Origin: Balaenoptera acutorostrata
Taxonomy: Eukaryota; Chordata; Mammalia; Artiodactyla; Balaenopteridae
Reading direction: 5' to 3'
Length of the DNA stretch: 64,000 bases
NCBI RefSeq assembly: GCF_949987535.1
Contig: NC_080067.1
Span: 78,455,985 to 78,519,984, forward strand
Part shown: in pieces, positions 6,546 through 64,000 of the stretch
Numbering within the stretch: the first letter of the stretch is position 1
How the letters are laid out: every line of letters begins with the position of its first letter
Made by a program: the position numbers and the translations under genes
Notes under the pieces: generated by a model
Told to the model about the DNA's origin: nothing
The model's input: the letters and a program-made list of their open reading frames with translations, nothing else
Databases searched by the model: none

Positions 6546-7387
6546 CTGACAAATTGGACCCTTGTTCAGTAGCTTGTGGATTACGTGCATTTTTTTAATG
6601 TTTTTTGGAGTAAGAGGAGAGCATGGTGAACTTGACCTCTCTGAGTTGCCCACTGGTCTGCAGACTGACAGCTGGCTGAGGAGGCTGAGCCCACCCGAGG
6701 TCTGCACTGCCCTGCAGGCTCCCTGCTCTAAGTCTGGCCGGAGGAGTCCACGCCTCCCCCCTGCTCACAGCTCAAGTCCGCACAGGGCCGCTGGTACCGG
6801 CACCAACCAGGTGACCCGAGGTTTGGCCCCACAACTGCTGCAGAGCCCTGGTCCTCAGACTCCAGGAAGCTCAGTTTACAGAGCTGTAAATGGGGGTCAT
6901 CCCCATTATCATCCTTGCCTTGCTCCAGCAGGTCCCTTTGAGAGGGCTGCTGGCGAGAAACAATTATAATACACGTTGCAAACCACGAGTGCTAGTTGTG
7001 TTCTGCAGCATCACCAGCCCCAATAGAAGTTGACCTTTGACAGCCAGCAACCCCACATTCCTTGGAAATAGTGTGTTTCCTCCTTGGGGGTGGGGTGGAG
7101 CCCTCTCTACCCATGATGGGCTGTCCTGGGAACCCAGGTCCGTGTGCCTTGAAGCCTGGCAGCTGTACAGGGAAGGCTGACAGGGAGGAACAGACCAGAG
7201 GTCCCCTTGCCATGCTCTCCCCAGGCTCTTCTCTCCCCTCCTCAATTAACAATTTGTGTTTGGGAAAGGTCTGCCTCCCCCCACCCCAGTTCTTCAAGGG
7301 CAGAGACTGAGCCTGCCCTCTGTCCACAGCATTCCCAGGGCCAAGCTCCATGTGGAACATAGCTAGTACCTAATAAGGTGTTTGCTG
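6546..7387. other. Intergenic sequence, no gene recognised
   Basis: Unique-looking, moderately GC-rich sequence. Open frames on both strands up to 135 codons lack any recognised family. Nothing else is seen. Confidence 0.55.
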
Positions 7388-7636
7388 AAAGAGAGAGAGA
7401 GAGAGACAAAAGGAAGGAAGGAAGGGAGGGAGGGAGGAAGGAAGGAAGGAAAGAGAAAGAAAGGAGGGAGGAAGGAAGAGAAAGGGAGAGAGAGAAAGAG
7501 ACAGAAAAAGGAAGAGAGAAAGGGAGAGAGAAAGAGAGAAGGAAGGAAGGGGGAAGAAAGAAAGAAAGAAAGGGAGAAAGGGAGAGAGAAAGAGAGAAGG
7601 GAGGAAGGAAAGAAAGGAAGGAAGGAAGGAAGGGGG

Positions 7637-7668
<32 letters not shown>

Positions 7669-7772
7669 AAAAGGGAGAAAGAAAGGGAGAGAGAGAGAAA
7701 GAAAGGAAGGAAGAGAGAGAATGGGAGAGAGAGAAAGAAAGAATGGGAGAGAGAGAGAAGATGGTAATTTCG
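7388..7772. repeat. Polypurine GA/GGAA/GAAA tract
   Basis: About 385 bases consist almost only of A and G on the plus strand, built from mixed GA, GGAA, GAAA and GGGA units (for example runs of GGAAG and GAAAGA), with only a few pyrimidines. Long open frames on both strands (K/R/E-rich one way, S/L/P/F-rich the other) are a composition effect, because stop codons are scarce in such a tract. They are not genes. Confidence 0.95.
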
Positions 7773-7949
7773 CATCCTGGAAGTGGACTGCTCCAGGGGG
7801 AGTTCTCAGAGCGCTGAGTGGCCTGGTCCTCCCCGGCAACTCCCGGACTATGGAGCTGCTAAGGAAAGGGTTACTGTTGACATCAGGGCTGGCCATTGTC
7901 TCTTCCTGGTCCTGAAGCTGTTCCCTTTCCCAGGATGTGTATATAGTTT

Positions 7950-26050: not shown

Positions 26051-26066
26051 AAAGGCATGAAGATGG

Positions 26067-26363
26067 GGCTTCCCTGGTGGCGCAGTGGTTAAGAATCCAC
26101 CTGCCAATTCAGGGGACACGGGTTGGAGCCCTGGTCCGGGAAGATCCCACATGCCGCGGAGCAACTAAGCCCGTGCACCACAACTACTGTAGCCCGCACG
26201 CCTAGAGCCTGTGCTCCGCAACAAGAGAAGCCACTGCAATGAGAAGCCCACACACCGCAATGAAGAGTAGCCCCCGCTCGCTGCAACTAGAGAAAGCCCG
26301 CGTGCAGCAATGAAGACCCAATGAAGGCAAAAAAAAATAAATTAATTAAATTAAAAAAAAAAA
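26067..26363 (+). mobile_element. CHR-1-type SINE with target-site duplication
   Basis: Starts 'ggcttccctggtggcgcag' and ends in an A-rich tail at about 26,363. A 16-bp target-site duplication, AAAGGC(A/G)TGAAGATGG, flanks it at 26,051-26,066 and 26,364-26,379 with one mismatch. Confidence 0.95.
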
Positions 26364-30388: not shown

Positions 30389-30512
30389 AATTCCCGGGCA
30401 GTCCAGTGGTTAGGACTCTGTGCTTCCACTGCAGGGGGCACAGGTTCGATCCCTGGTCAGGGAACTAAGATCCCGCATGCCTCGAGGCACAGCCAAAAAA
30501 GAAAAAGAAAAA
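30389..30512 (+). mobile_element. CHR-2-type SINE (short form)
   Basis: Starts 'gggaattcccgggcagtcc' and continues with 'ggttaggactctgtgcttcc', 'aggttcgatccctggtcagg' and 'aagatcccgcatgcc', ending in an A-rich tail. This is the short CHR type. Confidence 0.9.
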
Positions 30513-31783: not shown

Positions 31784-32895
31784 GATTTTGGTACTGGAGG
31801 TGGTTCTAGAGGAAGAGAATCTTAAGGATGTGTTTTCTGAATAGGTCCTGGATTTGCTGGAACTGTTTCTGTAGTCTGATTAGATTTAAAGGCACAAATG
31901 ACTCTATTTCAAGTGGTAAAGAGGGTACTGGTAGTCCATGGAGTGATGATATAAGAGATATGAAAAATATCACCATTGGATACTCCAGGCAAGGGTTTGG
32001 ATGACCTTTGAACTTTTTTTTTTTTTTTGACGATGCCACGAGATTTGTGGGATCTTAGTTCCCCGACCAGGGATTGAACCTAGGCCCTCAGCAGTGAATG
32101 CACCGAGTCCTAACCACTGGACCACCAGGGAAATTTCCTGGGTGACCTTCAGACATTTTAGTCAAACTAAATAGTATAATGAGATTGGCTGCTGGTTCCT
32201 AACTGGACAAAGTGGGAAAAGAGAAGGATAAGCTCAAGGCTTTAAATTCCCAGCTCAAGATCCTCATAAAATGACCCAAAAGCTGGCCGAAAAACAAACC
32301 CCATATCTCACTCTGTGAGTGGCTGAATTACAATGCAAATTGAATTCCCAGTCTCAGTGGTATCTACTGTTAAAGTGAGGGCACTGATTGTGAAGAGATG
32401 GGATGCTGAAAGTTGGAATGAGGACAAATGGGAAGACCCTGAGAGAGACGGGGACACTGAGTCCCTCAATTCTGGTGAGACTTTTCGAGCAGTAGAAGCA
32501 GACTTTCCACTGGCATCTGAGGGGATTAACCCTGCATTGGAAACTGTAATGGCCTCCCCAAAGCAGCTGCTTTGCAAGACAGTTTCTGTCTGCTGTTTCT
32601 CCTCAGGACCCACTCCCACCACTCCCTTTGCTTCTAGACCTACAATTAGACTCAAGTCCCAGCATGTCCCTAAAGGTGAAGCGTAAAGCAGGAGGAGGTG
32701 TGCTATTCACCAAAAGACTGCATGATTTTCCCAATTTATACAGACAAAGCCAGGGAATATGAGATTGGAATGTTAAGAGTGGAGTACTTCTGTAAGACCT
32801 GCTCGTCAGCCCCAGGAAGGTGCAGAGGACACATTTTTCACCACAACACAGAGGAATACTTACAAAGGTGGGAGAGACTATTAATACCAGCAAAG
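31784..32895 (+). pseudogene. Decayed ERVL gag region
   Basis: Sequence downstream of the LTR resembles the internal leader and gag region of ERVL. One frame stays open for 117 codons at 32,333-32,686 and has an ERVL-like segment, 'RWDAESWNEDKWEDP' followed by 'DTESLN'. The similarity continues in other frames to about 32,890 and then ends. No pol region, env region or 3' LTR is visible. A SINE at 32,014-32,138 interrupts it. It is a very old non-functional copy. Confidence 0.7.
32014..32138 (-). mobile_element. CHR-2-type SINE inside the ERVL relic
   Basis: On the minus strand it runs from 'ttccctggtggtccagtgg' near 32,138 to a T run (plus strand) at 32,014-32,028. Imperfect direct repeats GGATGACCTT and GGGTGACCTT flank it, consistent with a target-site duplication. 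Confidence 0.88.
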
Positions 32896-34784: not shown

Positions 34785-35490
34785 GCTTTAACAAGATACC
34801 ACAGACTGGGTGGCTTTTTTTTTTTTTTTTTTAAACCCAACAACCTAATTATGACTTTTTTTTTTTTAATTTATTTATTTTTATTTTATTTTTATGGCTG
34901 TGTAGGGTCTTCGTTTCTGTGCGAGGGCTTTCTCTAGTTGCGGCAAGCGGGGACCACTCTTCATCGCGGTGTGCGGGCCTCTCGCTATTGCGGCCTCTCT
35001 TGTTGCGGAGCACAGGCTCCAGTCGCGCAGGCTCAGTAATTGTGGCTCACGGGCCCAGCCGCTCCGCGGCATGTGGGATCTTCCCAGACCAGGGCTCGAA
35101 CCCGTGTCCCCTGCATTAGCAGGCAGACTCTTAACCACTGCGCCACCAGGGACGCCCTGACTGGGTGGCTTTTAAACAACATAACTTTATTTCTCACAGT
35201 CCTGGAGGCCGGAAGTCTGAGATCAGGGTGCCAGCATGATGAAGGCCTTCTTCCTGGTTCACAGCCAGCGACTCGCTGTGTCCTCCCATGGTGGAAGAGG
35301 TGAGGGAGCTCTTTTATAAACGGGTGGTGTCTCTTTTATAAGAACACTAATCCCATTCATGAGGGCTCCACCCTCATGACCTAAGCAGCTCCCAAAGGCC
35401 CCACCTCCCGATACCATTAGAATTTCAGAATTAGAATTTCCACATATAAATTTGGGGAGGGGGTGGGCACTAACATTCAAACCACAGCAG
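34785..35490 (-). mobile_element. MaLR-type LTR split by a SINE
   Basis: Left part 34,785-34,818 ('aagataccacagactgggtgg') and right part 35,159-35,490 ('aacataactttatttctcacagtcctggagg', 'atgagggctccaccctcatgacc', 'aaaggccccacctcc') form one reverse-orientation MaLR LTR. The SINE at 34,819-35,158 sits between them. Confidence 0.75.
34819..35158 (-). mobile_element. CHR-1-type SINE nested in a MaLR LTR
   Basis: Perfect 15-bp target-site duplication GACTGGGTGGCTTTT at 34,804-34,818 and 35,159-35,173. Head 'gggcgtccctggtggcgcag' is read on the minus strand. It is a full-length, well-preserved copy and so relatively young. Confidence 0.96.
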
Positions 35491-36153: not shown

Positions 36154-39100
36154 ATGAAGATGGCAGCCAGGGTGCTGTGGGGCAGCCTCGGCCTGCTCCG
36201 CCTGGTGTGGTGTCTCCTTCCGCAGACAGGCTACGTGCACCCAGATGAGTTCTTCCAGTCTCCTGAGGTCATGGCAGGTAAAGCTCCGCATGTGTGGTTA
36301 CGATAAGCTGCAGCAGAGTCTGGTCAAGGAGCTGATTGGCTATTTAGTGCGGAGGGAGAAAAATGTCTGTGCAGATGAGCAGTAAATCCACAAGCCTCTC
36401 TGGCATAAGAATTTGGGAGTGGGGACTTCGCGTCTCCTTCCTCAGTGGTGACATTGACCTTCTAAATGATACCGATGAAATGCCAGCCTCTTTGACATCT
36501 TCCTGCTTATAACAACAGTACAGGTCATTCAGAACAAAAGCTATTTTGGGCTTCTCAGTGGAAGGATTTTAGAGTTGGGCTTCCCCAGTGATTGGGGAAA
36601 CTTACACAGGGCTGTGACATAAAATAATAATGAAACTTTTCTTCTGTAGGTTCATATGATGGCTGAGGGAACCCAGACCTAGAATGCTCACTTGTTAGAA
36701 CTTAACTTCTAGGTGGTATAGGACACATCATGAAGATGGTTGCTGGAAACCTTGAGGCCTTTCAGATGCTGTGGTCACAAGGCTTCCTCCTCATGGTTCA
36801 AGATGGCTGCTTGTGCTCCAGGCATCAGGTCTGACACCAAGAGAGGAAGCCAAGAGATAGGCCTACTTTCTTTAAGGGCATATTTTGAAAGTCACATACT
36901 TTTTGCCCATTCCATCGCATTGGTCAGAATGTATCACGTGACCACACGTACCTGCAAATGGAAGCTAAAAAATATAGTGTTTATATCTGACCAAATGCCC
37001 GGCTAAAGAGACTAAGGATGAAGGAAGGAATGGATATTGACTGGGGAGTTATCAGCTATCTCTGCCACAGGGCTCAACAGGTGCATTTGTTTTTAAAGTT
37101 GAAAGGTCCAGTTTTTTTTCCACCCCCCCCCCGTTTTTTTTTAACCTGAGCCAGTAAAAAGCAGCCAGATTGATCTGATCCGAGGTTTTCTGTTTCCCTT
37201 TCACCTTCTGACACAGAGAGAAAAAAACTGCCAAAAGGCCGGAAGAATAAGGAGGAGAAGCAAAGAGCCTTAGACAACCAGCAGTGTTATCAAGTGTTAG
37301 ATATTGTAGAGCTTGGAGCTAAGATGCAGAAATTAAGAGTTCATTTTCCTCACCCCCACCCCTCAGAGCTCTGGGACAGTGGGGCACACAGTCAAAGACT
37401 AGCCCCAGGCAGCAAGTAATTTTAATTACATGAGTATATTCTTAATTTTAAACATTAAGAATCATAGACAAAACCAGTCGCTTTTGACCATAACCACAGT
37501 TGTTCATTCCCTTCCCCCATTCTCACACTGGCTGTCCTGGGTAACAGTCATAATCACGGAGATGTGTTTTTGACTCTGACTTTGGAGACTTTAGAACTCA
37601 AGGAGAGGAATGGGGCCTCCCCCTGCCCCTCCTCATACATCCAGGACACACTGTTACCTCACTTCCCAGGTGTGGGCTGCGTAACAAACCATCACAGACC
37701 TAGCAGCTTAAAACTGGCAGCTCACAGTTCTGTAAATCAGAAGTCCAGCCTGGGCTCTCTGCTCAGGGTATCATAAGGTATGGGCTGGGCTGAGTTCTCG
37801 TCTGGAAGCTCTGGGAGAAAATCTGCTTCCAAGACGATTCTTGCTGTTGAACAAATTTAGTTCATTGAGGCTATGGAACTAAAGTCCCATTTCCTTGCTT
37901 GCTGTAAGCCAAGGGCTGCTCTCAGCTCCCAGAGGCCAGCCACATTCCTTGCCAACTGCCCCTTCCACCTTTAAGCCAGCAAATCCTTCTCACCTCTGAT
38001 GTCCTCTTCTGCCACCAGCTGGAGAAAACTCTCTGATTTAAAGGGCTCATGTGATTTTTGTCACATGCATCTGGGTGATCTCTGTATCTTAGGGTCAGCT
38101 GATCCCTGTGACGTAACCTAATCACAGGAGTGAACTCTGTCGTCTTCACAGTCCCAGGGGTTATGTCCGGCATGTACACCAGGGGGCTGGAAAATCTTGG
38201 GGGCCATCCTAGGATTTTGTCCGTCATATCCTCTGTGCTGGGACCTGGCTCACCTCTCCTTCTCTCTCTGCAGAGGACGTCCTGGGCATAAAGGCCGCGC
38301 GGCCCTGGGAGTTTCACCCCAGCAGCCCTTGCCGTACAGTGGTCTTCCCACTGCTGACCTCTGGCTCTGCCTTCTGGCTGCTCAGGCTCTGGGAAGAGTG
38401 GGGGCCGTGGCCCGGCCCGGTGAGTGGCTATGCGCTGCTGGTCGGGCCCCGCCTCCTCCTCACTTCCCTCTCCTTTGCCCTGGACTTGGCCGTGTACCAC
38501 GTAGCCCCACGCTGGGGGGCGGAGCGCTGGAATGCCCTGGTCCTGCTGTCTGGCTCCTACGTCACATTGGTCTTCTACACAAGGACCTTCTCCAATGCCA
38601 TTGAGGGGCTGCTCTTTGTGTGGCTGTTGGTACTGGTGTCCCCCCGTGTGACTGGGAGCTGCACGCCCAAGAAGCCTGCCCCAGGCCCGCTGTGGCACGG
38701 CTGGCTTCTCGGGGGTGTCATGGCTGCTGGCTTCTTCAACCGGCCCACCTTTCTGGCCTTTGCTCTGGTCCCCCTCTTCCTCTGGGGCACTTACGGAGCC
38801 ACAAACCCCAGCCTCAAGTCGCTGACCAAGGAAGCCCTGGTGCTGCTCCCGGGGGCGACCCTCACAGCAGTGGGGTTTGTGGCTGTGGACAGCTGCTACT
38901 TCTCCAGTCCATCTAGACCCAGTACCCTTGTCCTTACACCTGCCAACTTCTTGTACTACAACCTGGATCCCGTAAACCTGGCGAGGCACGGCACACACAT
39001 GCGGCTCACTCACCTGGCAGTCAATGGCTTCCTGCTCTTTGGGGTGCTGCATGCCCACGCCCTGCAGGCTGCGTGGCAACAGCTGCGAGCCTGCCTCCAG

Positions 39101-39841
39101 GCCTTCATACAGATGGGCTTCCCAAGGGCACTGGCTGCCCGGAGCCTGCAGTCCAGCCCCAGGTCTCACCTCCTGCTCCTCTACTTCATGCCCCTGGCCC
39201 TGCTGTCTGTCTTTAGCCACCAGGAGGCTCGGTTCCTAATCCCCCTCCTGGTCCCCCTCGTCCTGCTTTGTAGTCTACAGACCCAACTGGCACCCCGCAA
39301 GGGCACCCTGGTCCTTTGCAACGCCCTGGGTGCCCTCTTCTTCGGCTGCCTGCACCAGGGAGGCCTGGTGCCTGGCCTGGGGCACTTGGAGCGGGTGGTT
39401 CGCGCTCCTGCGCTCCCGCGTGTACCCACCCACTACACACTCCTCTTCACCCACACCTACATGCCCCCGCGGCACCTCCTGCACCTCCCGGGCCTGGGCT
39501 CGCCCGTGGAGGTGGTGGACATGGGCGGGGCTGAGGACCAGCTCCTGTGCCAAGCCCTCAGCAACCTCACCAGACAACCAGCCTGCCACGTGGCTGGTGG
39601 GCCGTGGCTCTGCCGCCTTTTTGTGGTGACCCCTGGCACCACCAGGTCTGCCATGAAGAAGTGCAGCTTCCCCCTCAAGAATGAGACACTCATCTTTCCC
39701 CACTTGACTCTGGAGGACCCACCGGCCCTGTCCTCCCTGCTGAGTGGGGCTTGGAGGTACCATCTCAGCCTTCACATCCTGGAGCTGGGGGAGAAGCCTG
39801 ACAATATGACAGAAAAGCCCCTGCCCAAGACTCAGCCATAG
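36154..39841 (+). CDS. PIGZ: GPI mannosyltransferase 4 (two coding exons)
   Basis: PIGZ (SMP3 family, GT22) works in the ER membrane and adds a fourth, side-chain mannose to GPI anchor precursors from dolichol-phosphate-mannose. Exons are 36,154-36,277 and 38,274-39,841, joined across GCAG|GTAAAG and CTCTGCAG|AGGACG, giving 563 codons with no stop; human PIGZ is about 579. The N-terminus has a hydrophobic signal-anchor, then HPDEFFQ at residues 29-35, the GT22 hallmark with the catalytic acidic residue. Later family stretches include [38 protein letters not shown] and [16 protein letters not shown]. Many hydrophobic membrane segments fill the middle, and NET near the end is a possible glycosylation site. 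A second ATG lies two codons after the first, in a stronger Kozak setting. The gene looks intact. Promoter and 5' leader exons are inferred. Confidence 0.96.
36278..38273 (+). other. PIGZ: PIGZ last intron
   Basis: U2-type GT-AG intron of 1,996 bp between the two coding exons (phase 1: G|AG for the Glu codon). Its last 550 bp hold an LTR-like repeat. Runs of C and T lie at 37,123-37,141. No exon-like sequence is visible within it. Confidence 0.9.
37665..38225. mobile_element. LTR-like interspersed repeat before PIGZ exon 2
   Basis: The block starting 'gggctgcgtaacaaaccatc' with 'tcacagttctgtaaatcag' and ending 'cttgggggccatcc' has the layout of a mammalian LTR-type repeat (probably MaLR group), but it is diverged and the family is not certain. 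It ends about 50 bp before the splice acceptor of PIGZ exon 2. Confidence 0.5.
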
Positions 39842-44179: not shown

Positions 44180-44709
<530 letters not shown>

Positions 44710-47700: not shown

Positions 47701-50398
47701 GTAGATGTATATAGCTTGATTTTATAGGTCAAAACCAAAGCTATATTTACTTGTGACCATTTATTCTCTCCCTGGAAACTCTCCAAATATTGGACCTTCT
47801 GGATTTATCCTTTGATGTTTTGTTTTTTAACTAATATTTTTTGGTCATTTTGTTTGAGAAATTTTCCAGACCTGATCTACCGTGTCTTTTGAATTTTCTT
47901 TTCTGTGCCCTGAATTGTTTCTTTTGGTTGCATTTATGCCGTAAAATTTCCTTCAGTTTCTGGTGATCCCTGGGTTTCTGATTATAATTAAGGGAAAAAA
48001 GACTGACAATGTGGATCTAGGCAGAACTACATTTTTTTAAAATTAATTAATTAATTAATTAATTTGGCTGCGCCAGGTCTTAGTTGCAGCACATGATCTT
48101 TGTTGCCGCTCTAGTTCCCTGACCAGGGATCTAACCCGGGCCCCCTGCGCTCGGAGTGCAGAGTCTTAAGCACTGGACCATCAGGGAAGTCCCCAGGCAG
48201 AAGTTCTTAAGTTGCTGCCTTGCCTTTGGGACATGTGGGTTTCTCAAATGCTAGAATGAAAAGGGATTTTATTTGGCTTGTTAATGTTAAAGACAATGCC
48301 CTAGTTCCTCCAGACAGTTCAGATCCCTATCATTTTATTTTTATTTGCCTGGGATTAAATGCCTTTCTATTAACAGGTCTTTTTCCCACATAGTGGCTTC
48401 TCTTGCTGTGGAGCACGGGCTCTTGGTGCATGGGATTCAGTAGTTGTGGCTCGCGGGCTCTAGGGTGCAGGCTCAGTAGTTGTGGCGCATGGGCTTAGTT
48501 GCTCTGCGGCATGTGGGATCTTCTTGGACTAGGGATTGAACCCGTGTCCCCTGCATTGGCAGGCGGATTCTTAACCAGTGCGCCACCAGGGAAGTCCCAG
48601 AAGCCCCACTTTTGAACCTATTCCCCACTTTTGATTTCGGTATCTGATTTCTGGATTCTGCAAGCTTCTTCCACTCTTCCTTCAGATACGAGGGACGAGT
48701 GCCCAGGTTTTACTTTTGCCTCTGGTGGCAATAGTGTAAAACAGTTCACAGGGGACAGAAAAGGCAAAGAAAATACTAGATAATAACCAGTCTCTAAGAA
48801 CTGGAGTGTTTTTGCATCTGCCTTGAAGGTCAGAGATCAGCAATCATGACGGCAAATACCTGAAAGAAAGGCTACCGTTCATTGTTAGTGTTTTCTTCCT
48901 CAGTTTGCCCTTTAGCATTCATTTCATTCAACAAAAAATTATTGAATGCCCACAGTGTGCTAGGCATTGTGTAGATGCTGACACTGGAATTTCAGTGTTT
49001 CCCTGTGTAATTAAAGACAAGGGGAAAAAGTCCAGATCAGTATTTCCTAAACCCAGCTAATAATCATAATTACTTACAGAGATTTTTTTTTTTTTTAATA
49101 GCACCCCAAAGATAGATTTAGTAGATCTGGTTTGAAACTACTAATGTGAGTGATATTTTGAGTGTTTCCTTATAATGAAATGCAATGGCAATTCATATGT
49201 ACCATGACCTCTTTTTAAGGTTCTTGAATATACAGCTTCATATTTCAGGGAACCCAAAGATGCTGTTGTTTTCTTGGATAACAGTTCGTGGTTAAAACCT
49301 GCACTGAACATATTTTATATTTTGCAAACCAAAATATGGAGACAGTGGAACCAGATACTTAACAGGATTATCCAAAAAATCATCGGTGTAGCCATGGATA
49401 AGTGTCATTTTTGACTGCTTCTGGACCAACCTCAAACAGGCCTGTGCAAGCCAAATGATTGTCTTTGAACTCCATCTGGTTGGATTAGTTTTTGTACTTT
49501 TTCTTAACTCAGCTTCATTTAGATGTTGCTTTCTCTGTTTACAAAAATATCTGGAGAAATGCTAATTCCTTAATAATTATAATTAAGATACTATTCAAGA
49601 GCGGATGCAGAAAATGCCATGCGGTACATAAACGGAACTCGTCTGGATGACCGGATCATTCGCACAGACTGGGACGCAGGCTTTAAGGAGGGCAGGCAGT
49701 ATGGCCGTGGGCGTTCTGGGGGCCAGGTATGCAGAAAGGTTCTCTGGGTTCAGCCTTTGTGTGGGATTCCAGTCCTAAATGACAAGTGTTTTGTCAATTT
49801 GTATTTGCTCTTTTGAAAATAACTTTGTGCCTATAACCTTGGCTTGAAGTGAATCTGAAAACCACCCATTGGGGTTGGTAAATTATTTTTACACTTGATC
49901 TTAGCCAAAAGGCCAAGAAGCGATGGTAAATTATTTTTAAAAACCATTAAATAGTATATTCTCTACATCACAAGCAACCATTATTGGACTTCTGCTAGGG
50001 GCTAAATGTTCTTCACCTGCCAAGAGTGTTGAACAAAAGCAAAACGCACTAAAATGACTTACATTTTTATTTTAAAATAGTTTATTCTTTGCAACGTGCT
50101 ATCGTTGAATGCTGAGTATGAACCTGGTGTTTGGTAAAACACCATTAGGTAGTCTTAATTTTGCAGGGCAGTTGAGCTATATTATCAGTTGCTTAAAATT
50201 ATGTTCTGTTCTGCTTGAAATGTTCACATCATGACATCTGAAAAGACTTAGTTATTTGACACATTTTAGGAAGCACATTTGTTACACTAATCTTCTCTAT
50301 ACTGTAACACGTTCTTTTCAATTAAGGTACGAGATGAGTATCGTCAGGACTACGATGCTGGGAGAGGAGGTTATGGAAAACTGGCCCAAAACCAGTGA
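44710..50398 (+). CDS. NCBP2: Nuclear cap-binding protein subunit 2 (CBP20), four coding exons
   Basis: NCBP2 binds the m7G cap of nascent RNA polymerase II transcripts together with NCBP1, and serves splicing, export and the first translation round. Coding exons are 44,710-44,787, 47,042-47,223, 49,588-49,726 and 50,327-50,398, giving 471 nt and 156 residues, the same length as human NCBP2. The RRM spans about residues 40-118, with RNP2 (LYVGNL, 42-47) and RNP1 (TACGFCFV, 79-86). The cap-contacting residues Tyr20, Tyr43, Phe83, Phe85 and Asp116 are all present. The C-terminal tail is rich in Gly, Arg and Tyr. Intron 2 is a U12-type intron; introns 1 and 3 are ordinary GT-AG. It is head to head with NCBP2AS2 and tail to tail with SENP5. 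All exon joins preserve frame, so the gene is judged intact. Confidence 0.98.
46332..46653 (-). mobile_element. CHR-1-type SINE in NCBP2 intron 1
   Basis: Perfect 18-bp target-site duplication CCTGAAAAACCTATTTTT at 46,314-46,331 and 46,654-46,671. The tail is (TTTA)n on the plus strand. A stretch around 46,430-46,475 ('ctcttcatcgcggtgcg') occurs twice in tandem, a small internal duplication. Confidence 0.97.
46715..46870 (+). mobile_element. MIR SINE in NCBP2 intron 1
   Basis: Forward MIR: 'ggtttggattccagctac', 'gatgtgtgaccctggacaagctacttaac' and 'gagaattaaatgag'. Confidence 0.85.
48030..48198 (-). mobile_element. CHR-2-type SINE in NCBP2 intron 2
   Basis: (TTAA)n tail on the plus strand at about 48,036-48,064, body 'gctgcgccaggtcttagttg' and 'ccctgaccagggatctaacc', and head ending 'gggaagtccc' near 48,194. 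Confidence 0.88.
48392..48598 (-). mobile_element. 5'-part CHR-1 SINE, tail missing
   Basis: Body and head of a CHR-1 SINE ('gtggcttctcttgctgtgg' to 'gggaagtccca'), read on the minus strand. The A-rich tail half is absent, so it is truncated. Confidence 0.85.
49890..49924 (-). pseudogene. U2 snRNA 5' fragment retropseudogene
   Basis: On the minus strand it reads as the first ~35 nt of U2 snRNA (ATCGCTTCTTGGCC...), with one difference from the normal CTCGG. A perfect 15-bp direct repeat GGTAAATTATTTTTA flanks it at 49,877-49,891 and 49,925-49,939. There is no poly(A) tail. This is the short 3'-truncated class of snRNA pseudogene made by L1 machinery. It lies in NCBP2 intron 3. Confidence 0.9.
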
Positions 50399-58600: not shown

Positions 58601-61014
58601 AACTGAAATGAAATTTAAACATTCTAGCCTTAGATATACTCCATGTTTTTGAGGGCTGCAGGTAAAAGTATCATTCAGCTTCTAGAAAGTGATACTTAAA
58701 GCCCATCCTGGATACTAAATACAGTCAAGTCCACTGCTGAAATCTCTACCAAGATGAAGCCTACTGGAGTTCCTAATTTTCCCTTATGCCCTCCACCTCT
58801 TTGTGTATCTTTCTCTGCCTATCTTTTCTAAGGGTGAAGTCAGAGGTTACATGAATTAAATTAACCCCCTGAAGGTGGAGCAGAAGTATGTATGTACATG
58901 TAGAGATACAAGTATGTGTCTGTATATACATACATACATATACACATACACATATCTGCATATTCATATTTTCTTTCCATATATGGTATCATTCTGCAAC
59001 TTGCTTTTCCAAACTCAGTATGTCTTGGAGGTCTTTCCATGTTAGGACACAAAGATCTACTATATTCTTTTTAACTGCTATTGTCAGTTTAATATTGTGA
59101 ATATACTACAGTGTATGTATTTAGCTATTCTGTTAGTAGAGCTAAATTTAGGTTGTTTTGACTTTTCACTATTATCAGTAATGCTGCAATGAACATCCTG
59201 GTGTATGCCCCATTCTTGTGTGCATATACAAGTATTTTTATGTAGTATATACCAAGAAATAGAACTGGTATGTAATAGGATATGTGTCTTTTTAATGTAT
59301 AAGGCACTTAGAATTGCTTAGAATTGTAATTGTTCCCCAAATGGCTGTATCAATTTATACACTCCACCAGAAATTGAAAATGCCTGTTTCTTACACCCAC
59401 TTTAGTACCATCAAACTTTTCCTAACATAATAGGCAAAAAATGGAACCCTGAGGTGGTTTTAATTTGCATTTCCCATATTTCTGGTGAGGCTGAGCATCT
59501 CTCCATGTGTTTAATGGCTATTTGCATTTTTCCTAAAAATTACTTATTTTATCCTTTGTCCCTTTCTATTAGATACTTCTTTTTCTTATTCATTTGTAGT
59601 TCTTTTTATATTCTGGATAGTGACTATTATCTATGTCACAAACATTTTCTCCAAATCTATCCCTTTTAACTTTATGACAGACAGAAGTTTTAGATGATGA
59701 CATGGTCAAATTTATCAATCTGTTCCTTTATGTCTTTTGCTTTTTTTGGTTCTGCATAAGAAGACCTTCCATACTCTTTGTGTTTTATATTTAGGTCATT
59801 ATTCCATCTGGAATTTGTTCTTATAAATAGTATGAAATAGAATCTGTATTTTACTTTTCCAAATAGATAGCTAATTTTCCCAATGGCATATATTGAATAG
59901 CCTGTCCATCCCCAACTTTATTATATACTAAGTTCCCACATATACATGAGCTACTTCTAGATTCTCTATGCTGTTCCACCAATCCACTTGTCTATTCCTA
60001 AACCAATATAATTAAAATAGCTTTAATTTTTAAAACTTTGTGATATGGTTTGACATCTAGTAGACCAAATATTCCTTTCTTCAATTTTGATCTACTTCAA
60101 AACTATTTTAGCTGTTCATGCACATGAATTTTGCAATATGAATTCTAGGATGAGCTTATCAGGTTTCATTCAAAATCCTCCTGGGAAATTGATTAGGACA
60201 GAAATTAGTATATATTAGTTTAGGGAGAATTAATCTCCTTCCAATACTGAGTGTGCCTGTCTTCCCATCTATTCAGACTTCCTTTAAATACTTTAGAGTC
60301 TTCATCTCAAAGAATGTCCCCATTTTTTGTTAGGGTATATTCCTGGGTAATTCATGTCTTTGCTACTTTTGAAAATGGAATCTTTCTGTTTTCATTTACA
60401 TTTTCTAACTGTGCGGGAGAATCAGGAAACATACTGATTTTTCTTGCTTTGTATCCCACCATCTTATTGAACTCTTATTAACTGAACTCTAATATTTTGC
60501 CAGATGATTCTCTTGGCTATAATACATTCTACAGAAGTTACTTTGAAGATACAAGCCAATTTTAGCTCTAAGAGAAACCAAGGAAAATGATTTCTATCCA
60601 CATTCAAAATGTATTTTTAAGGGAAAGACAGAAAAAAATCTGATGAAATCCAAAACAGGGCATGTATCTCAGAGAGGGATCCAGATCGTGGACAGCTACC
60701 TCTTCCCACCTGGAGATTCCTCTTGTCCTTTTCTCTGCCAACATTTTTGACATGACATGACAGAAACTGATCATCTATGGTACTGACTTCTGTTGTTCTA
60801 TCCTAGAGCTGAGATACCATCTGGTCAATCACAAAATAAATGGGGAAAAAAAAGGGGGGGCAGTATATTAACTTACCTCTACACAAAACTTAAAATGAAT
60901 GCCTTGGGAATCATAAAATGAAATAATTCGATTAGAGAGTGTCACAGTAATGAGAGACCAGTGGACTTCCAGGTGAATAGGAATCAACAGAAGACTCTTT
61001 TTAAACAAATCCAC
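55622..61014 (-). CDS. SENP5: SUMO protease SENP5, last four coding exons (partial)
   Basis: SENP5 is a nucleolar cysteine protease (C48/Ulp) that matures SUMO and removes SUMO2/3 from targets. Four minus-strand exons are present: 60,877-61,014 (46 codons), 58,130-58,213 (28), 56,599-56,649 (17) and 55,622-55,732 (36 plus stop). All have GT-AG borders and are phase 0, giving 127 C-terminal residues. If the protein is 755 long as in human, the catalytic His646 (VHWSL), Asp663 (FYDSQG), Gln707 and Cys713 (DSDCGVF) all fall here and are conserved. The C-terminus is CECRLMD. The exon with the preceding WTKK sequence is not seen up to the right edge, so it must lie beyond the window. No disabling change is present. 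Confidence 0.96.
57400..57560 (+). mobile_element. MIR SINE in SENP5 intron
   Basis: Forward MIR: 'ggattcagttttctcatctataataaagag', 'cctgcctacctcacagactgtaaggatcaaat'. Its borders are uncertain. Confidence 0.7.
58885..58955. repeat. ATAC/GTAT-rich low-complexity tract
   Basis: Alternating 'gtatgtatgtacatg' and 'tacatacatacatatacacatac' units over about 70 bp, in a SENP5 intron. Confidence 0.85.
58956..60540 (-). mobile_element. Old L1 ORF2 fragment in SENP5 intron
   Basis: Reverse-strand L1 text: 'gtaatgctgcaatgaacatcctgg', 'gaggtggttttaatttgcatttcc', 'atttatcaatctgttcctttatg' and 'catcttattgaactcttatt'. It is heavily mutated, and no translation of useful length remains. Confidence 0.75.
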
Positions 61015-61928: not shown

Positions 61929-62226
61929 CTTTTTTAATTATTTATTTTATTTTTGGCTGCGTTGGGTCTTCATTGCGGTGCACGTGCTTCTCATTGCCAT
62001 GGCTTTTCTTGTTGTGGAGCACAGGCTCTAGGCACAAGGGCTTCAGTAGTTGTAGCACAAAGGCTCAGTAGTTGTGGCTCACAGGCTCTAGAGCACAGGC
62101 TCAGGAGTTGTGGCGCATGGGCTTAGTTGCTCTGCAGCATGTGGGACCTTCCCGGATCACGGATCGAACCCGTGTCCCCTGCACTGGCAGGTGGATTCTC
62201 AACCACTGCGCCACCAGGGAAGTCCC
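61929..62226 (-). mobile_element. CHR-1-type SINE with target-site duplication
   Basis: Perfect 14-bp duplication TACAGGGCTATTTT at 61,915-61,928 and 62,227-62,240. On the minus strand the head is 'gggacttccctggtggcgcag' and the tail is TAAATAATT-like. Confidence 0.96.
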
Positions 62227-62645
62227 TACAGGGCTATTTTAAACTAGATTCTTAGAAACTATTTCTCAAGCGTTCTTTGCTTTCTGATATTCAGATAATG
62301 TCCTGTTCTAGAAGAATCTTCTACCAGTCTACATGACCTTGTAACAAACCACTTCTGCTTTTCAGTTTCTGTATCCATAAACCTGGGAGGTGAGGTGGAC
62401 AGGAAATACTAAATAGGACAGACAATTTGGTCCTTTCCAGCTCAAAAATTCTGAGTAACTAAAACAAGAAATCATATTTAAAATACAGCATTAAATGAGA
62501 CCAAATTTACACTTTTCTCAAAAAGAAACTTTTTTCTTAATTATAAATCAATTTTAAAATAAAAATTACAAAATACAGATAAAAGGATATACTTCAGTTT
62601 ATGTCTTTCCAGATCTTTGTCTTCTTTTTAATATATTAATTTTCA

Positions 62646-62661
62646 CACACACACACACACA
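62646..62661. repeat. (CA)n microsatellite
   Basis: Eight CA units in an AT-rich stretch, about 40 bp upstream of the retroinsertion at 62,701. Confidence 0.9.
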
Positions 62662-62700
62662 ACCTTATTACATATATGTAATTAAGAATGACGTGTGTGG

Positions 62701-63379
62701 AGTGACTAAGATAGAAAAATAGAGGATGTGATGATGAAGAGTCTGGTTGTTAACAGGCTTTCTTAGATTGAGAGATAATGTCTAAACAAGACTGAGTTTA
62801 GAGCACATTTCTTCAACATGTGTAGGTTAAAGGTTTCACTTGTCAGGTGGAGTGTGTATTGAGACTGTGTATTGAGACTTGTGTATAAACAAGAAGGTAG
62901 GCACAAAGCCCTCTGGTTATCAGAGGATTTAGCTTCAGGAGAAATGGGGGGTTATCTACTCTAGATGGCAAAGAGTTGGGAGAGGCTCATGGACTTGGCA
63001 TGCTAATAAGGTAGAATTAGAAGATGAACTTTCAAAACGCATTGTTTACAAAAATCTTTCTCAATGAACTATGCCCTCTCTGTATGTATTAAAAAAGTTG
63101 GTTTCTCATTTGGATAATAAAGTGGAGAGCTAGTAGTGGGAACTTATCTAATTCAAAGTTAGTACTTAAATTTCTAAGAAAAATATATCTGAAACAGTAA
63201 CAAGTTGTATATTGCCAAAAACTACAGGAAAAAATGAAATATAATGCCTTGATTTGGAGATGAAAAGAGCTTGAAATACATAAAGTACTTTAAAATTGTA
63301 GAAAATATAGTTCAAAATGATGAAATAAGAATGATGAAATAAGAATATGCTACAGCAGGAGGGACAAAAAAAAAAAAAA
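62701..63379 (+). mobile_element. Poly(A)-tailed retroinsertion of unknown source RNA
   Basis: A 679-bp block ends in a run of 16 A (63,366-63,381) and is flanked by a perfect 17-bp direct repeat, AAGAATGACGTGTGTGG, at 62,684-62,700 and 63,380-63,396. The cut point ATT|AAGA resembles the L1 endonuclease target (TT|AAAA). These are the marks of L1-driven insertion of a polyadenylated RNA. The body is AT-rich, has no coding frame over 60 codons and matches no repeat or gene that I recognise. It contains small tandem duplications at about 62,853-62,880 and 63,317-63,347. No canonical AATAAA precedes the tail. Confidence 0.88.
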
Positions 63380-63639
63380 AAGAATGACGTGTGTGGTCAA
63401 TTGTATTACTGATCTCAATTATTTGGTGTCCTCCCTGTAAGAGGATTATACAGAACTACCTATTACCATGTGGCTTCACTGCCCCTTCCAGGGGGAAAAA
63501 TGTAGTCATATGATTTGCTGTAAAGAGAAATGAACTTATGTCATGACCAAGCTGAAACTTCAAGAGCCATCATGTGGCCCTGAGACTGACATGTCTGAAG
63601 ATTAGGTGCTGCTCCTTCAGTTTGGGTCCCATTAAAGGA

Positions 63640-63895
63640 ATAAAGATGAGAAAACACAGGATCATCTCCTTAGATATAGGGAAAAGCATTTGATAAAGTT
63701 CAACATCCATCTATGATTAAAAGCTCTCAGCAAACTAAGAATAGGAGGGAACTTCCTTAACCTGATAAAGAGCATCTACAAAAAAACCTACAACTGACAT
63801 CATAAACAGCAGTGAAAAACTGAATGCTTTCCTCCTAAGATTAGGAACAAGGCAAAGGTGTCCTCTCTCATTACTTTTATTCAACAATGTACTAG
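63640..63895 (+). mobile_element. LINE-1 ORF2 fragment
   Basis: Plus-strand L1 reverse-transcriptase region: 'gaaaagcatttgataaagttcaaca' (the AFDKVQ block) and 'ctaagattaggaacaaggcaaaggtgtcc' (the RLGTRQ block). The frame is broken in places. Confidence 0.88.
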
Positions 63896-64000
63896 GGGCT
63901 TCCCTGGTGGTGCAGTGGTTGAGAGTCTGCCTGCCAATGCAGGGGACACGGGTTCGAGCCCTGGTCTGGGAAGATCCCACATGCCGCGGAGCAACTAGGC
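63896..64000 (+). mobile_element. CHR-1-type SINE, cut by window edge
   Basis: Starts 'ggggcttccctggtggtgcag' and continues through 'gggaagatcccacatgccgcgg' to the last base of the window. It is inserted directly after the L1 fragment. Confidence 0.95.

Follow-up and report, generated by a model that had tools for sequence, protein, structure and literature searches.

A 665-nt insert in an intron of SENP5 with the junctions of L1-mediated retroposition, probably copied from a cellular transcript

Junctions and age of the insert

The block at positions 62701-63365 (plus strand) of the window, i.e., of the whole 64-kb stretch of DNA that was analyzed, is almost certainly a genuine and ordinary L1-mediated insertion. 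With a probability of roughly 60%, we consider it to be a copy, made in trans by L1 and most likely non-functional, of approximately 665 nt from the 3′ portion of a cellular transcript made by Pol II, either a 3′ UTR or a lncRNA. According to this model, an L1-encoded protein would have nicked the SENP5 intron at TT/AAGA, and reverse transcription would have been primed in trans on the poly(A) tail of the cellular Pol II transcript. Copying of this 3′ portion would then have left a tail of 16 A and a target-site duplication of 17 bp. We infer that the template was mRNA-like and that the copy is 5′-truncated or intronless.

The insert is flanked by the 17-bp direct repeat AAGAATGACGTGTGTGG, the two plus-strand copies of which (62684-62700 and 63380-63396) are identical at 17 of 17 positions. 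The elements at 62684-63396 follow the order TT, AAGAATGACGTGTGTGG, a body of 665 nt, 16 A, and the second copy of AAGAATGACGTGTGTGG. The A run on the plus strand (63366-63381) is uninterrupted and abuts the downstream duplication, which begins with the final two As of the run. Because these two As belong to the repeat as well as to the tail, the body of 679 bp given in the preliminary description is composed of 665 nt and 14 A. Directly 5′ of the upstream copy stands GTAATT, which places the cut site TT/AAGA at the start of this copy. The perfect 17-bp repeat, the 16-A tail, and the L1-like cut site were thus present as described before, and jointly they support retroposition by L1-type machinery. 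Since repeat, tail, and cut site together form the signature of target-primed reverse transcription, retroposition is close to certain. The length of the duplication lies within the range of approximately 7-20 bp that serves as a criterion for L1-mediated (TPRT) insertion. PMC6478352 lists seven motifs for the L1 endonuclease, among them TTAAGA, and a peak at 14-16 bp, to which the 17-bp duplication of the insert is close, is given for the duplications of full-length L1 elements (PMC2912911).

That unique ancestral sequence contains a repeat next to an A tract by chance, with no insertion at all, is extremely improbable, and nothing beyond its formal possibility speaks for it. AAGAATGACGTGTGTGG occurs exactly twice in the 64-kb window, and no third match was present there when up to three mismatches were allowed. 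The expected number of matches was 0.17, and none of 100 shuffles contained two. In a scan of both strands for runs of at least 10 A (n = 15), we searched for an exact repeat of at least 11 bp starting at the end of the tail. An upstream copy was found for two of the 15 runs, which belong to the insert at 62701-63365 (17 bp) and to a SINE at 34804-35173 (15 bp). The mirrored control, in which the second copy was sought downstream of the A run, gave 0/15. Among 3000 random 17-mers starting with AA, an exact copy in the 8 kb upstream was present for only two; the copy at 26263 is located 41 bp beyond the blastn-mapped SINE copy 26065-26222 and that at 48539 inside the blastn-mapped SINE copy 48437-48598. 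The shuffles, the mirrored control, and the random 17-mers all argue against a chance repeat. The joined flanks of the insert matched three places in the window, none of which spans the junction, so that an older repeat copy with the empty site is not seen in the window.

The perfect duplication had been taken to mean that the insert is young, which over-reads this evidence. We calculated the age bound with substitution rates that were assumed rather than measured, each copy of the 17-mer containing one CpG. The 95% upper age was 40 My at 2.2e-9 per site per year, 88 My at 1e-9, and 176 My at 0.5e-9; with a tenfold CpG rate these values decreased to 19, 43, and 86 My, respectively. Across the assumed rates the 95% upper ages therefore extend from 19 to 176 My, and the perfect pair is a loose bound that permits an age of tens of millions of years. 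The uninterrupted 16-A tail would favor the younger end of this range, but it is insufficient to call the insert recent.

Properties of the body and its 3′ end

The body lacks the signals of a structured RNA and of a recent coding sequence, which argues against such parents and favors no particular parent. Comparison of its six frames (stops as X) with Pfam at E values up to 1 gave no family, in a scan in which the HMMER filters discard most matches above approximately 0.1. The longest open frames comprise 44 codons on the plus strand and 66 codons on the minus strand, compared with means of 48.8 and 71.3 codons in 300 shuffles. As no Pfam family was found and the open frames were no longer than in the shuffles, a coding origin, cellular or viral, was rejected. 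A recent coding copy should have retained an open frame; given the loose age bound, the rejection is less firm for a coding copy that is old and broken.

A search of positions 62000-64000 with Rfam yielded three sub-threshold matches (MIR390, mir-3149, and t44), which scored 20.9-21.2 bits compared to gathering scores of 44-100, and no match at gathering level within the body. The fold energy of the body was the same as that of shuffles (z-score 0.09; an equal or better fold was obtained for 6 of 20 shuffles), and together with the Rfam result this led us to reject a retrocopy of a structured ncRNA. A paralogue within the window was rejected as well: the best similarity of the body elsewhere in the window (29.7 bits) was reached by 31 of 60 shuffles. 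Two matches of 36.8 bits, obtained when the query included flanks and tail, involved the A tail and a CA repeat and were set aside because of their low complexity. When the body was compared by blastn with phage and plasmid collections, 14 of 50,697 and 8 of 72,556 records matched, with short pieces only and E values of 0.02 or worse, and exact-pattern scans of viral and prokaryotic contig collections gave 0 matches. These negative results carry little weight because the collections are not expected to contain mammalian DNA. The designation of the source as an unrecognised RNA in the preliminary description thus holds with regard to Rfam, Pfam, and the repeats of the window, although unrecognised does not equal unknown. 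The retrocopy is non-coding and most likely without function, and the tests made gave no sign of one.

The observed/expected ratio of CpG in the body is 0.058, compared to a median of 0.20, and 7% of 614 overlapping window segments are as low. This depletion fits a long-methylated, AT-rich genomic template rather than a repeat that is young and carries CpG. The body furthermore shows a GC skew of 0.33 (G over C), the absolute value of which is matched by approximately 1% of the 614 overlapping segments, a C content of 11%, again matched by approximately 1% of the overlapping window segments, and a purine excess of 59.5%, which is matched by 13% of window segments. As a clue for identification the composition was dropped, since the G-over-C skew led to no identity. 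An imperfect tandem repeat of 13 bp with 2.5 copies is located within the body at 62853-62886 on the plus strand.

With respect to the 3′ end of the template, the last 60 nt before the tail contain neither AATAAA nor ATTAAA; the AATAAA closest to the tail, at 63116, starts 250 nt upstream of it. In the interval 10-35 nt before the tail, where the criterion for processed retrocopies places AATAAA or ATTAAA, AATAAG alone is present; it is located at 63338, and its start is 28 nt away from the tail, which is the usual distance. The poly(A) signal is missing from a minority of real mRNAs, and its absence is therefore not disqualifying. A 14-bp tandem duplication on the plus strand (AATGATGAAATAAG, 2.2 copies; 63316-63346) contains AATAAG at 63324 and at 63338. 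Since both 14-bp units carry this hexamer, its origin from AATAAA later than the duplication is improbable, and in the simplest history AATAAG predates the tandem duplication. Lacking a canonical signal, the RNA may have been polyadenylated at a weak site or primed on a templated A tract. The 3′ end thus argues mildly against a textbook mRNA end, which keeps an orphan L1 3′ transduction among the alternatives weighed below.

Genomic setting and SINEs of the window

The insert is located 1.67 kb from an exon of SENP5 on the minus strand (60877-61014), which comprises 138 nt or 46 codons of the Ulp1/C48 peptidase domain and has a visible acceptor and donor. This exon matched Pfam PF02902 (Peptidase_C48) with an E value of 3.4e-11 and chain residues 81-126 of PDB 9gnn, Sentrin-specific protease 5, with an E value of 6.4e-26, compared to 1.2e-10 for the SENP3 entry. 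The minus-strand frames from the exon to base 64000 contained no other C48 match in a scan that a very short exon could escape, and the preceding SENP5 exon is therefore presumed to lie outside the window. From the verified exon and the preceding one presumed beyond the window it follows that the insert is intronic and antisense to SENP5. The SENP5 intron named in the preliminary description is accordingly supported as far as the window reaches.

Elsewhere in the window, the plus strand contains an RRM match, which we take to belong to the neighboring gene NCBP2, and an open frame of 542 aa (38213-39841), which is presumably the large exon of PIGZ. An open frame of 175 aa on the minus strand (44180-44707) presumably represents NCBP2AS2, beside the first exon of NCBP2, and we assume that the gene order fits NCBP2 and PIGZ as neighbors. 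A purine-rich low-complexity tract of the GAAA/GGAA type at 7363-7805 is free of stop codons in several frames, on both strands.

By blastn, another SINE was detected at 14 places in the window, and we assume that these SINEs belong to a CHR-type family. The copy at 34804-35173 on the minus strand has a perfect 15-bp duplication, AAAAGCCACCCAGTC, which begins with AAAAG, and an 18-A run; besides that at 62701-63365, it represents a second clean insertion of this type. In the body of the insert at 62701-63365, no match to a tRNA, 7SL, or 5S head was found, but this is a weak test, as the two SINE copies in 62000-64000 (62011-62228 and 63893-64000) also had no tRNA match. The tRNA model was reached by only two of the 14 SINE places, and ARAGORN calls overlap four of these places. 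What speaks against a SINE is therefore the single-copy status of the body in the window and not the absence of such a head. ARAGORN made five tRNA calls (880-953, 30391-30465, 32058-32131, 35081-35152, and 48114-48187). Four of them overlap blastn-mapped SINE copies and are hence probably tRNA-derived SINE heads rather than tRNA genes; the call at 32058-32131 has no SINE overlap. SINEs are co-mobilised via active LINE1, CHR SINEs have been inserted in whales throughout the history of this group, and for whales the site preference of LINE1 is described as not explicitly investigated before (PMC10531181).

Origin of the insert and comparison with known systems

The identification of the template as a cellular transcript is derived from the base rates of insertion classes. 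Table 1 of PMC2912911 covers human- and chimpanzee-specific insertions with duplications of at least 5 bp. For human and chimpanzee, respectively, it counts mRNA retrocopies at 48 and 95, ncRNA retrocopies at 14 and 13, and L1 insertions, all structural types taken together, at 1120 and 948, while 387 of 6197 and 347 of 2910 insertions are uncharacterised. Poly(A) tails were present on only 3 of 25 ncRNA retrocopies according to the text of that study, the table of which sums to 27 (PMC2912911). Since the ncRNAs counted there are rRNA, snRNA, snoRNA, tRNA, 7SK, and 7SL, the counts favor an mRNA-like template and cannot separate mRNA from lncRNA. For an insert that has a tail but no L1 or SINE sequence, an mRNA-like transcript is the most likely template, and the open frames of 44 and 66 codons as well as the fold z-score of 0.09 fit a UTR or a lncRNA. 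Against this preferred reading stand the much higher frequency of L1 insertions than of mRNA retrocopies (PMC2912911) and, mildly, the absence of AATAAA and ATTAAA near the tail. It is quite improbable that the body represents an undescribed, lineage-specific polyadenylated germ-line ncRNA of which the insert is the only genomic trace or one of few. Searches of the literature with phrases on lncRNA retrocopies returned no papers, a result that applies to those phrases and the library searched only.

Orphan L1 3′ transductions are a minority of events, and we regard such an origin as possible but unlikely. It would require read-through of an L1 into unique DNA up to a weak poly(A) site and a 5′ truncation that removed all L1 sequence. 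The junction signature would be identical to that of a retrocopy, and the body resembles intergenic or intronic DNA in that it is non-coding, AT-rich, and poor in CpG and has no good poly(A) signal. In human colorectal cancer, sequence transduced from downstream accompanies approximately 25% of L1 insertions (PMC13009371). The 5′ edge of the insert shows no sign of L1, although none is expected if the transduction is an orphan, and without the parent locus a retrocopy and an orphan transduction are not separable.

It is likewise unlikely that an L1, known or lineage-specific, or another non-LTR element gave rise to the body as its 5′-truncated 3′ end, e.g., its 3′ UTR. Such an origin would agree with the A-richness of the body, with the excess of G over C, and with the counts of L1 insertions compared to mRNA retrocopies (1120 and 948 versus 48 and 95; PMC2912911). 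However, the body has no above-shuffle similarity to the rest of the window, which contains open frames that we take to be L1-like (31 of 60 shuffles reach its best match), and its CpG depletion is stronger than expected of a recently active element. A new repeat family, SINE-like or otherwise lineage-specific, would explain a complete insertion signature around a body without identification, and Rfam was a weak test of a tRNA head, as the two nearby SINE copies without a tRNA match demonstrate. We nevertheless consider it very unlikely, because the body is present once in 64 kb compared to 14 places of another SINE, has no similarity to that SINE, and with 665 nt is long for a SINE. The earlier proposal of a new SINE-like element found no support, as the body stands alone in the window and has no paralogue above shuffles.

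The insert is probably of mundane parentage, and as a single locus it is of little weight, since retrocopies made by L1 are well documented in mammals. Owing to its perfect duplication and clear cut site, the insert could be used as a clean presence/absence marker for relationships within its group, and it could point to the parent transcript once a genome is searched. With the L1-made mRNA retrocopies described in PMC2912911 it shares the tail, a duplication of typical length, and an L1 endonuclease site, but it differs from them in having no canonical poly(A) signal before the tail and no detected coding part. Like the retrocopies of non-coding host genes of the MIR302CHG type in placental mammals (PMC7692494), it shows L1 hallmarks on a non-coding body, whereas no Rfam family, miRNA precursors included, was matched by this body at gathering level. 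The orphan L1 3′ transductions reported in PMC13009371 also have a tail and a duplication around unique sequence without L1. The unclassified insertions collected by RetroSeeker, for which hundreds of thousands of cases are claimed in humans, mice, and flies, are similarly recognised by duplication, tail, and a TTAAAA-type site and not by family; the evidence there includes the empty site in another genome (PMC11727581). Within the window, the SINE at 34804-35173 has junctions of the same kind but belongs to a sequence found at 14 places, whereas the body of the insert is single.
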